Source: Ruania albidiflava DSM 18029
GTDB lineage: Bacteria; Actinomycetota; Actinomycetes; Actinomycetales; Beutenbergiaceae
NCBI RefSeq assembly: GCF_000421225.1
Contig: NZ_ATWL01000022.1
Span: forward strand, 1-45,603
Reading direction: 5' to 3'
DNA length: 45,603 nt
The first letter of the stretch is position 1. Each line of letters starts with the position of its first letter. Both the position numbers and the translations under genes were made by a program. The notes under the pieces are model-generated. The model was not told where the DNA came from. It did not search any database and saw only the letters and a list, made by a program, of their open reading frames with translations. Below are positions 3,232 to 6,491 of the stretch, in pieces.

Positions 3232-4470
3232 TCATGGCCCGCTCAGACCGGCTCGACGGCGGGTGGTCGCGTTGGCATGGTCGCTCCAGCGGGGTACCCA
3301 TCGCCCGAGCGCGGCGGTGGCGAGCACACCGATGCCGCCCATCGCGATCACCCCGGCACCCAGAGAGCCGAGTGCAGCGCCGAGGGAGACGCCGAGCGGC
3401 CCGGCGGCGTTGCCGGTGTCGCCGAACAGCCGCCAGATGCCCAGGTACTGTGCGCGCCCACGTTCTGGGGCGGTGTCCGCGCCGAGGGTCATCAGGATGC
3501 CTGAGCCGATGCCGTTGCCGATGCCGAGCAGCAGCGCCACTGTGATCACCGCCGGCAGGCTCTGCGTCAGCGGCAGCAGCACCATCGCCAGGGCCATCAC
3601 CAGCATCGAGGGGATCGCGATCCAGAGCCGACCGAGCCGGTCCATCACCTTCCCGGCCGGGTAGAACAGCAGCATGTCCACCGCACCGGCGAGGCCGAAC
3701 ACCAGGCTGGTGGTGGCCGGGGCGAAGCCGAGGTGCTCGGTCCACAGCGGCAGTACGCTCTGCCGGGCACCACGCACCGCACCCACCAGCAGCACTGCGA
3801 TGCCCAGGGTGGCGAACGTGGCCCGGAAGCTGCGCAGCACGTCCCAGGTGGAGACCCGCGCTGGCGCAGAGCTGCCGCTGCCGTGCGGGCGGTGCCCCTC
3901 GCTGGGTACGAGGAACCAGACCACCAGGGCGGAGATGAGCGAGGTGATCACGGCCAGCCAGTAGGAGGGTGCCGGGTTCTCGTTGCCGTGCACGAGCGCC
4001 GCACCGGCGAACGGGCCGAGGAACAGGCCGATGCGGGCTACACCACCCAAGGCGGACATCGCCCGGGCGCGGCGCATCGGGGCGATCACCTCGGTGAGGT
4101 AGGCCTGCCGGGCCAGCCCGTAGACGGCGTTGGTCGCGCCGGTGAGCAGCACAGCCAGCGCGAGCACGCCCAGGTTGGGTGCCAGGGCGCACCCCGCCAA
4201 CGCGACCATCGCCACCAGGGACGAGCAGATCATCGCGAGCCGGTCCCCGAGGCGTGCGGCCAGTGCGCCGGCGGGCACGTCGGCGATGATCTGTCCGACC
4301 GGCAGGATCGCGACCAGCAACGCGGCCCCGGCCGCATCGGCGCCGAGGTTCACGGCGCTGACCGCGATCATCGGCATCATGGCGCCGATGCCGATGCTGA
4401 ACAGCAGCGACGGCAGGTACACGCCGGGCAGCAGCGGGCGCAGCGAGGTGAACTGCTGGGCGCCGCTCAC
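3232..4470 (-). CDS. MFS transporter
   Basis: A 412-residue integral membrane protein with about twelve hydrophobic segments, typical of the Major Facilitator Superfamily. The loop between segments 2 and 3 reads GALAARLGDRLAM, matching the MFS motif G-x-x-x-D/R-x-x-G-R-R/K, and a related VMDRLGRLW appears in the second half. It starts at GTG. The substrate cannot be read from sequence; efflux of a small molecule is the usual role for this drug-resistance-like layout. Downstream on the same strand are the unrecognised gene, the M81 peptidase and cutC, so it probably heads that operon. A strong hairpin separates it from the repeat-protein gene upstream. Confidence 0.8.
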   Translation of the reverse strand: MSGAQQFTSLRPLLPGVYLPSLLFSIGIGAMMPMIAVSAVNLGADAAGAALLVAILPVGQIIADVPAGALAARLGDRLAMICSSLVAMVALAGCALAPNLGVLALAVLLTGATNAVYGLARQAYLTEVIAPMRRARAMSALGGVARIGLFLGPFAGAALVHGNENPAPSYWLAVITSLISALVVWFLVPSEGHRPHGSGSSAPARVSTWDVLRSFRATFATLGIAVLLVGAVRGARQSVLPLWTEHLGFAPATTSLVFGLAGAVDMLLFYPAGKVMDRLGRLWIAIPSMLVMALAMVLLPLTQSLPAVITVALLLGIGNGIGSGILMTLGADTAPERGRAQYLGIWRLFGDTGNAAGPLGVSLGAALGSLGAGVIAMGGIGVLATAALGRWVPRWSDHANATTRRRAGLSGP

Positions 4471-4616: not shown

Positions 4617-4641
4617 GCTGACCCGTCTGGGGCGGGTCAGC
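4617..4641 (-). terminator. 9-bp hairpin just after the repeat-protein gene
   Basis: The arms GCTGACCCG and CGGGTCAGC enclose seven bases, 13 bases past the stop codon of the GWGDELI gene. Position and strength fit a terminator or RNA-stabilising hairpin. With the 18-bp hairpin beyond it, the gene is followed by two hairpins in tandem. Confidence 0.5.
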
Positions 4642-4653
4642 GAAGGCTCACGG

Positions 4654-4935
4654 TCAGATCAGCTCGTCGCCCCAGCCGAAGGTCTGGACGCCACCGCCGC
4701 CACCGTTGATGAGCTCGTCGCCCCACCCTGAGGTCTGAACGCCACCATCACCACCGTTGATGAGCTCATCACCCCAGCCCTGGGTCTGCTGACCGTCCGG
4801 GTTGAGCTGGATGAGCTCGTCGCCCCATCCTGCGGTAGTGCTGGCCGATGCGCCCGGTGCCATCAGCAGCACCGCACACACCGCACCGCCGGCAACCGCT
4901 GCCCACCGGGCCCGACGTGTCGCTTTCTCTCTCAT
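4654..4935 (-). CDS. Small secreted protein with four GWGDELI repeats
   Basis: A 93-residue precursor. Residues 1-32 form a signal peptide: basic start MREKATRRAR, hydrophobic core AAVAGGAVCAVLLM and an A-S-A cleavage-like site. The mature part is almost entirely a 17-residue repeat, with GWGDELI at residues 36-42, 53-59, 70-76 and 87-93. The spacers are LNPDGQQT- or NGGxGGVQT-like, and the last copy forms the C-terminus. AAGGAG precedes the ATG by 11 bases. It is a single-gene unit followed by hairpins; no modification enzyme, protease or dedicated exporter is adjacent. I know of no named family with this motif. It could be a precursor of short secreted peptides, a self-assembling surface protein or a repeat ligand. 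That is inference; secretion and repetition are direct observations. Confidence 0.75.
   Translation of the reverse strand: MREKATRRARWAAVAGGAVCAVLLMAPGASASTTAGWGDELIQLNPDGQQTQGWGDELINGGDGGVQTSGWGDELINGGGGGVQTFGWGDELI
4657..4830 (-). repeat. 51-bp in-frame tandem repeat (3.4 units)
   Basis: Three full 51-base units plus a final 21-base unit encode the GWGDELI array. Unit boundaries on the minus strand are 4830-4780, 4779-4729, 4728-4678 and 4677-4657. The codons vary between copies (for example GGC/GGT, GAC/GAT, CTC/CTG) while the seven residues do not change, which suggests selection on the peptide rather than very recent duplication. Confidence 0.9.
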
Positions 4936-5086
4936 GATTCTCTCGGCTCCTTAGCCTGTTGTCCCCCGAGAGACGGGTCTCCCACTGTAGCGAATCATGT
5001 GGATCATCGCTCGCGCGAGTCTGCCGCCTGCCTCGGCCTATACACGGGAATACCCCATGCAGCCCTGATACTACGCGGAAAAGTCG

Positions 5087-6043
5087 TTAGTCGGTGGTCT
5101 TTCGGGAAGCGGATTCCGACGACGTCTGGCCCGTGGGTGTGCCGCTGTCGCCCTGCTCGGGCGCCTCAGCGTCAGCGGCCTGGCCAGGCTCCTGCGCTGC
5201 ACCCACCGCAGCGGCCCCCGGTGCCGCATCGGCTTCCTGCGCACCAGGCTCCGCAGGCTGCCCAGTCTCTGCGGGCAGTGCCACCACGTCCAGGTCGTAC
5301 TCGTCCACGTGCAGGTCGGGCTGCTCCCACTCGTGCCCGCCGACGTTCAGGTCGGTCTCCGAGTGCGCCCCGCAACCGTGGTCCAGGGAGACCACCTTGC
5401 CGTCGTCCGGGGACCACTCGTTCGCGCACACCCCGAAGAGCTGCCCCAGCGACCCGGCCAGCGGCACCACGAACCCGCAGCTGGCGCAGGAGGCGCCAGC
5501 GGCGCGCGCCCCGGCCGTGTCCGGCCCACGGGAGCCTTCGTACCAACGGGTGGCTGCGTCGTCGAGAGCCTTGCGGTTCATCACCCGGTCGCGGCCGAGG
5601 CCCAGCTCGCGCAGCGCGAGCCGGTCCATCTCCTCGTCCCCGGTGCCAGCGGTCCAGCCGGGCTCGAGGCGGTCGTCGCCGGCCACGTAGGGCAGCCGGT
5701 CGGTGGGGCCCACGTCCCCCGGGGCGAGCCGCTCCGCCCACGGCAACCAGGCTGGGGCGAGCAGTGAGTCCTCTCCGGGCAGCAGCCCGGACTCGCACAC
5801 GGTCGCGTTGCGCGAACGCGGGATCCGGGAGAGCGTCACGTACCAGCGCCACCCGTGGTAGCCGGGGGTGGTGGCGGCGAAGTAGTGCGTGCCGAGACGC
5901 TCGGCCTCCAGGGTGAAGCCGAGGTGCTCGCCCACCGGCTCGTCGCCGAGCGCGGCGCGGGCGAGGTCCACGGCAGCCTCGAGCACCGTGTCGGAGGTGG
6001 GTTTGCGGCCCGTTGCCGGACGGGTGGCCGCAGCGGCCCTCAT
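5087..6043 (-). CDS. DUF3027 domain protein
   Basis: A 318-residue actinobacterial protein of the DUF3027 family; function unknown. The conserved body runs to about residue 235 and includes HYFAATTPGYHGWRWYVTL, a WLPWAERL block and a probable zinc-binding part with CASCGFVVPL followed by later C and H residues (GVCANEWSP, DHGCGAHSE). The remaining ~80 residues are a low-complexity Ala/Pro/Gln/Glu tail. The start ATG overlaps the stop of the cold-shock gene (ATGA), so the two are almost certainly translated together. Pairing of DUF3027 with a cold-shock protein is common in actinobacteria, but no mechanism is known to me. Confidence 0.85.
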   Translation of the reverse strand: MRAAAATRPATGRKPTSDTVLEAAVDLARAALGDEPVGEHLGFTLEAERLGTHYFAATTPGYHGWRWYVTLSRIPRSRNATVCESGLLPGEDSLLAPAWLPWAERLAPGDVGPTDRLPYVAGDDRLEPGWTAGTGDEEMDRLALRELGLGRDRVMNRKALDDAATRWYEGSRGPDTAGARAAGASCASCGFVVPLAGSLGQLFGVCANEWSPDDGKVVSLDHGCGAHSETDLNVGGHEWEQPDLHVDEYDLDVVALPAETGQPAEPGAQEADAAPGAAAVGAAQEPGQAADAEAPEQGDSGTPTGQTSSESASRKTTD

Positions 6044-6423
6044 ACGTCGAACTCGTCGGCGACGACGCGCAGCATCTTCGCCAGCTTCGCGGACTCGGCC
6101 CGGTCGGGGTAGCGCCCGGAGCGTAGCCGGTTCCCGGCCCGGTCCAGCAGGCGGATCAGGTCCTCCACGATCGGGCCCATGTCTTCGGCGGAGCGGCGCT
6201 GGTTGCGGGTGACCGAGTGGGCAGGATCGAGGATGGTCACTGACAGCGCCTGCGGACCGCGGCGGCCGTCGGCCACACCGAACTCCACCCGGGTGCCCGG
6301 GCGCGGGGCGGGGGCTCCTGCCGGCAGCGCCGAGGCATGCAGGAAGACCTCGCCGCCGTCGTCCGAGCCGATGAACCCGAAGCCGCGGTCGGCGTCGAAG
6401 AACTTGACCTTGCCGGTGGGCAC
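6040..6423 (-). CDS. Cold-shock domain protein with C-terminal extension
   Basis: A 127-residue protein. Its first ~65 residues are a CspA-type single-stranded nucleic-acid binding domain: PTGKVKFFDADRGFGFIGSDDGGEVFLHASAL contains the RNP1-like GFGFI and RNP2-like VFLH motifs (shown here only as landmarks). Residues ~75-127 are an extra mostly helical tail, ending LAKMLRVVADEFDV, that ordinary 67-residue cold-shock proteins lack. GTG is chosen as start because the family begins at this point; an upstream in-frame ATG would add 15 unrelated residues. The stop overlaps the start of the DUF3027 gene. It is divergent from the helicase-associated gene at 6527. Confidence 0.85.
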   Translation of the reverse strand: MPTGKVKFFDADRGFGFIGSDDGGEVFLHASALPAGAPAPRPGTRVEFGVADGRRGPQALSVTILDPAHSVTRNQRRSAEDMGPIVEDLIRLLDRAGNRLRSGRYPDRAESAKLAKMLRVVADEFDV

Positions 6424-6491
6424 GTGTCTACCCGTCTTTCTCTCGTGGGAGGGGAACGCTCGAGGCACGCAGTGCGTATCCGTGCACCCAG

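Follow-up and report, generated by a model that had tools for sequence, protein, structure and literature searches.

A small gene of Ruania albidiflava DSM 18029 encodes a signal peptide followed by four identical GWGDELI heptapeptides; its relatives occupy the same chromosomal locus with a core that changes from lineage to lineage, and two Occultella prophages carry tiny open reading frames (ORFs) that end in exactly the heptapeptide of their hosts. Our preferred explanation, to which we would give a probability of about one half, is that the gene product is a precursor holding several copies of a short signal peptide or ligand specific to each lineage, and that temperate phages imitate this peptide. 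The gene lies in the window, by which we mean the whole stretch of 45,603 nucleotides that was analysed, on one of the 60 contigs of a 4.17 Mb genome, and the features of the window referred to below are as follows:

4654..4935, minus strand: array precursor gene, 93 aa, with conserved orthologues and only synonymous changes in the motif
4843..4935, minus strand: Sec-type signal peptide, residues 1-31, with APGASA and cleavage after the A-x-A site (cleavage assigned by eye)
4810..4830, minus strand: GWGDELI copy 1 (exact motif search)
4759..4779, minus strand: GWGDELI copy 2 (exact motif search)
4708..4728, minus strand: GWGDELI copy 3 (exact motif search)
4657..4677, minus strand: GWGDELI copy 4, C-terminal (exact motif search and translation)
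4947..4952, minus strand: Shine-Dalgarno-like AAGGAG, 11 bases upstream of the ATG (by eye; identical in G003)
4984..4989, minus strand: TACAGT, candidate -10 element (by eye; identical in G003)
4617..4641, minus strand: 25-base inverted repeat (hairpin), 12 bases past the stop (by eye)
5087..6043, minus strand: DUF3027 protein, conserved upstream neighbour
6040..6468, minus strand: cold-shock-domain (CSD) protein, conserved upstream neighbour
3232..4470, minus strand: MFS transporter, conserved downstream neighbour

Translation of positions 4654-4935 on the minus strand gives MREKATRRARWAAVAGGAVCAVLLMAPGASASTTA-GWGDELI-QLNPDGQQTQ-GWGDELI-NGGDGGVQTS-GWGDELI-NGGGGGVQTF-GWGDELI-stop. The sequence-only reading had described a signal peptide and four identical heptapeptides at an exact 17-residue spacing, the last forming the C-terminus, and the translation bears this out on the minus strand, with spacings of 17, 17 and 17 and 0 residues beyond the last copy. 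The N-terminus holds five K/R within its first 12 residues and then a hydrophobic core, as judged from hydropathy and by eye, and residues 2-24 form a helix in the predicted structure model. Codons and spacers vary, as had also been claimed: at the DNA level the copies are four distinct 21-mers, and among the six motif pairs the codons differ 14 times, always synonymously (0 amino-acid changes), whereas among the three spacer pairs 16 of the codon differences are non-synonymous and 4 are synonymous. The gene looks monocistronic, as it has its own ribosome-binding site and an inverted repeat downstream, the latter being a probable transcription terminator. An AGGAG- or AGAGG-like sequence stands upstream of the array genes in the 14 regions that were compared by eye, and G+C-rich inverted repeats are visible, again by eye, 3' of most array orthologues. 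The array ORF is a real gene and not a chance frame.

When 99 genomes were searched with the window protein, 12 (the window's own included) gave a match at E<=0.01. Besides the window gene, six of these matches are clearly orthologous and share its motif, at E 5e-44 to 4e-6; the remaining five genomes gave weak matches only (E 0.001 to 0.009), and L014, one of the five weak-match loci, contained no such repeats when scanned. GWGDELI arrays are thus found in 7 Ruaniaceae genomes of Ruania and Occultella, with 4 to 8 copies each: 4 in the window (G000), 5 in G003, 4 in G007 (where the gene is truncated by the contig end and its N-terminus is not visible), 6 each in G010, G017 and G020, and 8 in G023. 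Named relatives that carry arrays are Candidatus Ruania gallistercoris and, from Occultella, three strains, and this kinship probably places the window among the Ruaniaceae. All 39 copies in the seven translated arrays are exact GWGDELI, a count that comes from the exact pattern, the lack of degenerate copies being read from the translations. Within one gene, copy pairs differ on average by 1.5-3.1 nucleotides, all synonymous, and the codons vary at both glycines, D, E and L. Selection on the heptapeptide, as the sequence-only reading had proposed, is supported by these synonymous-only differences and by the contrast with the spacers of the window gene. The exact heptapeptide occurs in 7 of the 24 genomes of the family, always in the arrays or in one of two additional tiny ORFs, and the reversed control pattern had 0 matches; the looser GDE-[LFVIM]-I-stop is found in the same 24 genomes at exactly 9 places, namely the 7 arrays and the 2 prophage ORFs, again with 0 for the control. 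The 17-residue spacing, on the other hand, did not hold as a rule of the family. The period is 17, 16, 16 and 16 in G003 and 9 in Occultella, whose spacer consists of two residues, RN or RA, so that it is the heptapeptide core that is conserved and not its spacing.

In relatives lacking GWGDELI, other precursors were found by reading the interval between DUF3027 and MFS. G002 and G005 encode a signal peptide and 4 and 3 copies of GGDEELI, respectively, with a spacing of 17 or 18; G004 and G006 encode a signal peptide and one C-terminal GADEEVI; and G001 has one GGDEEVI. The arrays of the genus g8 (L139:1442-2353, L140:1445-2137 and L141:1870-2622) are the longest, with 15 copies in G021 and 16 in G014, both KDGDEFI (GGKDGDEFI), and 22 in G018, of which 20 carry GPKDGS, one is GPKDGTEFI and one GPKEGSEFI. 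Arrays or single cores were therefore recognised in 15 of the 24 family genomes (7 of the GWGDELI type, 5 of the DEE type and 3 of the g8 type), and none outside the family in the searches made. The cores share, approximately, a Gly-rich start followed by [D/S/E]-E-[L/V/F]-I. Their number per gene runs from 1 to 22, and in every member the last core directly precedes the stop or, in g8, is separated from it by one residue. DEE-[xTx]-I-stop occurred in the 24 genomes only at the 5 array loci (control 0). A repeat scan that recovers all 12 multi-copy arrays, and is blind to single copies, found no array at the eight loci L142-L149, nor does any frame there end in E-[LVFIM]-I-stop; this survey of loci leaves out G008, which has no DUF3027 match.

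An EF-hand reading of KDGDEFIRAA was considered and dropped, as by eye the acidic positions 1 and 12 of the EF-hand motif are missing. Multi-copy members range from 3 to 22 copies, and three species (G004, G006 and G001) have a single one. A copy number that varies down to 1 fits a precursor, and a folded repeat would not tolerate it. Such single-copy members, together with the one-copy ORF of the phages, make the multi-copy peptide precursor the best supported among the options that had been offered for the window gene. Homologues without a conserved motif would, on its own terms, have refuted the sequence-only reading, and this was half the case: GGDEELI, DEEVI, KDGDEFI and KDGSEFI replace GWGDELI elsewhere, yet these cores are themselves repeated exactly or nearly so, and at the same locus.

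The order CSD-DUF3027-array-MFS, all on one strand, is kept across carriers, although the G007 contig allows only the MFS side to be seen. No receptor, protease or importer linked to the array was found among these neighbours. Judged from 4-kb slices, 15 of the 16 genomes with an MFS gene at the DUF3027 locus have an array or a single core, and 0 of the 7 genomes without MFS do. We do not claim that the MFS protein is a dedicated transporter of the array product, as in G009 the MFS gene adjoins DUF3027 without an array. A tree was built from DUF3027, MFS and CSD (MFS is missing in 7 genomes, the rooting on G011 was chosen, and supports were taken from the Newick output). Support is 100 for each of Ruania-A, Ruania-B, Occultella and g8, and 99 both for Ruania and for Ruania plus Occultella. 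All carriers together with G009 form a clade with support 100, in which G009 alone, with DUF3027, CSD and MFS together, lacks the array gene; the branching order of g8 and G009 has a support of only 55. On this tree the core switches by lineage while the locus stays fixed. Because GWGDELI is present in both Ruania-A and Occultella, it is probably the older state of these two, with the core presumably switched in Ruania-B.

The sequence-only reading had called the protein secreted, and here the outcome is divided. In Ruania and Occultella the N-terminus is visible for 11 members, and all of these start with a Sec-type signal, as judged by eye and hydropathy (for G017 from the translation only). 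The three g8 array proteins, however, have no classical signal peptide, but a short Ser/Thr-rich N-terminus instead, and the claim of secretion is therefore weakened for the family. Such difference would suit an intracellular protein with a short linear motif, in which the core would be a docking or degradation tag, the arrays would titrate a host protein, and the phage ORF would act as a one-copy inhibitor or adaptor. The phage ORFs, too, are without a classical signal peptide, and the position of the core at or beside the C-terminus in every member is what a tag of this kind might show. The Sec-type signal in all 11 members that could be judged argues against it, and we consider this explanation improbable.

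Searches for known families gave little. The window protein has no Pfam, NCBIfam or PHROGs match, and searches of open-licence PMC papers gave none with GWGDELI or the other cores and no description of the family, in agreement with the earlier statement that no described family was known. Seven array proteins compared with NCBIfam reached the cut-off of no model; the G002 array shows a weak resemblance to thiovarsolin (E 0.075; 13 bits, where the cut-off is 35). With Pfam, cut-offs are reached by the g8 arrays, for SH3_2 (L140 and L141), DUF3924 (L139), and Myb_DNA-binding_2 and Hypoth_Ymh (L141), but we take these matches as artefacts because they are sums of weak repeats, with 0 stretches passing alone. 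No RTX model is among the profile matches of the arrays. On the basis of sequence, we have filed the family as one of the multi-copy peptide-precursor kind, apparently outside any known family.

The weak thiovarsolin match, along with the identical repeated cores, might suggest a RiPP, a modified peptide with several cores, for which the tailoring enzymes would be encoded away from the array. As had been noted from the window, no tailoring enzyme is adjacent: none lies between or beside DUF3027, CSD and MFS, with G007 visible on the MFS side only. A Sec signal, moreover, would take the precursor out ahead of any cytosolic modification, and the phage ORF leaves little space for a leader, all of which makes a RiPP very unlikely in our opinion.

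The main rival of the precursor reading is a secreted multivalent binding or surface protein, whose uncut repeats would bind one partner, such as a cell-wall component, a protein or a metal, with avidity, and for which the prophage ORF would be a decoy or a block of binding, for example in superinfection exclusion. Tandem repeats of variable copy number are common in surface proteins, and AlphaFold gave a moderately confident model for the 8-copy array of Occultella (pLDDT 71, pTM 0.60), with a helix predicted for most repeats. This model was built from only 3 close sequences, 89-99% identical, and had no PDB fold match; we did not accept it as evidence of a fold, but a folded repeat keeps some probability. 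The window array, in contrast, is predicted to be disordered (pLDDT 46). Single-copy members also speak against avidity, as does the end of the chain, which stops at the motif or one residue on (0-1 residues past the last core), with no sorting signal, membrane segment or anchor after the repeats. We regard a surface protein as unlikely, although it deserves to be kept in mind.

The two isolated GWGDELI matches that a single-motif search of the 24 family genomes returned outside the arrays are both 16-residue ORFs in Occultella: MFGFFFGLFGWGDELI in G010 (L246:927-977) and MFRFFFGFLGWGDELI in G023 (L133:9905-9955). Their consensus is MF[GR]FFFG[LF][LF]GWGDELI, with a hydrophobic N-terminal half and a C-terminus identical to the heptapeptide of the host, and GGAGGTGA ahead of the ATG provides both with a strong ribosome-binding site. 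In G010, 40-base direct repeats of a tRNA-Arg end (L246:215 and 16056) enclose about 15.9 kb encoding an excisionase-like protein, an HNH endonuclease, terminase, portal, major head, tail and integrase (the last two scanned on L150); in G023, 44-base tRNA-Thr repeats flank a region of about 31.5 kb, and the proteins scanned there include tail and endolysin proteins. The ORFs sit about 0.67 kb (G010) and 0.15 kb (G023) inside the attachment sites. Between the 501-base stretches around them good alignment is limited to the ribosome-binding site and the ORF, and blastp of the ORFs of the two 20-kb prophage loci, which cover as prophage about half or less of each region, gave no pair above threshold. 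The two prophages thus differ from each other, as far as these comparisons reach. A PHROGs scan of 17 prophage proteins gave no AimR-like match.

The presence of the host core in two different phages suggests that a signal of the host is being imitated or saturated. Could the phage ORF instead be the leader peptide of an attenuator, with a function unrelated to the arrays? An inverted repeat follows the short ORF in both prophages, by eye, which would suit an attenuator, but the ORF and the arrays have exactly the heptapeptide and the stop in common. In G023, furthermore, there is no ORF of at least 60 residues between the 16-residue ORF and the attachment site, and hence no evident downstream phage gene to regulate. 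This explanation seems to us far-fetched.

Further searches gave one more match to the phage ORF. A tiny-ORF pattern run over viral contigs matched 12 stretches, of which L150 alone was correct; this IMG/VR contig holds the 16-residue ORF and the surrounding G010 sequence, and is for this reason probably the same prophage and not an independent one. Pattern searches found no cognate tiny ORF for the other cores, and the lineage patterns of those cores gave nothing apart from one unrelated enzyme-like protein. WGDE-x-x-TRR, run over 396 order genomes, had two matches outside the family, G609 and G566 (with TGG for TRR), which we put at chance level since the reversed control had matches in 4 genomes, including one of the family. 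A pattern of the N-terminal half of the ORF gave 6 matches in 396 genomes, and the 4 besides the known two were taken as chance from their DNA. Tblastn against phages and against plasmids yielded one weak match each (E 8 and 4), and the plasmid match, in Euzebya, consists of a few GWGDD/GWGDE pieces in different frames with no regular array on translation.

The two-copy DNA pattern matched none of the viral contigs. The three-copy [DE]E-x-I pattern matched 5 viral stretches, of which 4 are unrelated acidic repeats and one, L258, has no three-core frame. The viral contigs L256 and L260 share a stretch with PAPDEVIAPAPDEVIAPAPDEVIAP repeats, also based on [DE]E-x-I and unrelated. Over genome contigs the two-copy pattern found 28 stretches, among them 4 known arrays (3 in Occultella and 1 in Ruania) and 4 WGD-repeat proteins of Acidobacteria-type MAGs (L048, L054, L056 and L061). 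The remaining 20 are not arrays: L046, L049 and L069 have in-frame repeats of another kind, and in the other 17 the frame is short, the copies are out of phase or the sequence is unrelated. The Acidobacteria-type proteins carry C-terminal QIVWGDQIVWGD or QIIWGDEIF repeats, but their frames of 231-672 residues, a mostly 6-residue repeat and their other phyla set them apart, and we judged them unrelated to the arrays. L054 alone among them includes an S8-peptidase-like sequence, by eye. In 394 class genomes, a profile search matched 16 at E<=1e-4, strongly only in G000 (3e-30) and G010 (8e-51), the other 14 (E 6e-8 to 1e-4) being judged compositional from frame size and score. The two-copy pattern matched 29 of the same 394, all of which besides G000 look, from their DNA alone, like ordinary coding sequence; its sensitivity is limited, as it missed the known G010 array.

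Taken together, exact cores, a free copy number, a C-terminal core, switching between lineages and a phage copy fit a short released peptide ligand better than a folded repeat. According to the precursor reading, the Ruania and Occultella protein would be exported by Sec, extracellular proteases would free the C-terminal copy first and the internal copies later, and the released peptide would be sensed by a receptor whose gene lies at another place in the genome. The phage ORF may deliver the same ligand from the lysogen, and the host signal would in this way be imitated or saturated. Against a precursor are the spacers, which by eye have no common cleavage site, and the two variant copies among the 22 of G018, and the phage side is drawn from two prophages only.

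In spite of its peculiarities, such an arrangement would not be without parallels. SHP pheromones of the Rgg systems are encoded by tiny ORFs that begin with hydrophobic residues and end in a short active peptide, and in both respects the prophage ORF resembles them, although the host carries its peptide as a multi-copy array. In Bacillus phages, Arbitrium AimP is likewise a phage-encoded precursor ending in a short peptide; unlike AimP, however, the prophage peptide described here is identical to one encoded by the host chromosome. For the RRNPPA systems of Bacillota it is reported that 6.7% of atypically large propeptides have more than one peptide copy (PMC9765709), that tandem propeptides with up to 8 copies have been reported and two phage-borne Rap-Phr systems dissected (PMC11343458), and that the active peptide is mostly C-terminal in multi-copy propeptides (PMC11343458, PMC9765709). 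In those accounts, RRNPPA propeptides (Phr3T and Phr105; Rap, AimR, NprR and PlcR) are, like the arrays, small Sec-exported precursors with a C-terminal peptide and internal copies, an architecture found here in Ruania and Occultella but not in the three g8 arrays, and they occur on phages and chromosomes alike, as does GWGDELI (PMC11343458, PMC9765709). RRNPPA systems, however, have their receptor next door, whereas the arrays have DUF3027, CSD and MFS as neighbours and no adjacent TPR receptor, and because of this we did not file them as RRNPPA propeptides. The arrays, in addition, belong to Actinobacteria and not Bacillota, reach 22 copies against the up to 8 reported for RRNPPA propeptides, and the likeness drawn here is one of architecture; the phage version, a 16-residue ORF without a classical signal, also differs from RRNPPA propeptides.

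Signals between cells of Actinomycetota are usually described as small molecules that enzymes make, in contrast with the oligopeptides of Bacillota (PMC10075063). It is a tentative possibility that the arrays represent an actinobacterial form of peptide signalling, with lineage-specific types, an array at a fixed locus, and different temperate phages that have taken the signal as a minimal 16-residue gene, with which the prophage would address the host in its own terms. The core differs between sister lineages at one locus and phages carry exactly the local version, and, in practical terms, a peptide this short (seven residues) is open to chemical synthesis and the array is present in named Occultella strains. 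If our reading is true, this family would provide a concrete peptide for signalling tests, and an instance of peptide mimicry between phage and host outside Bacillota.
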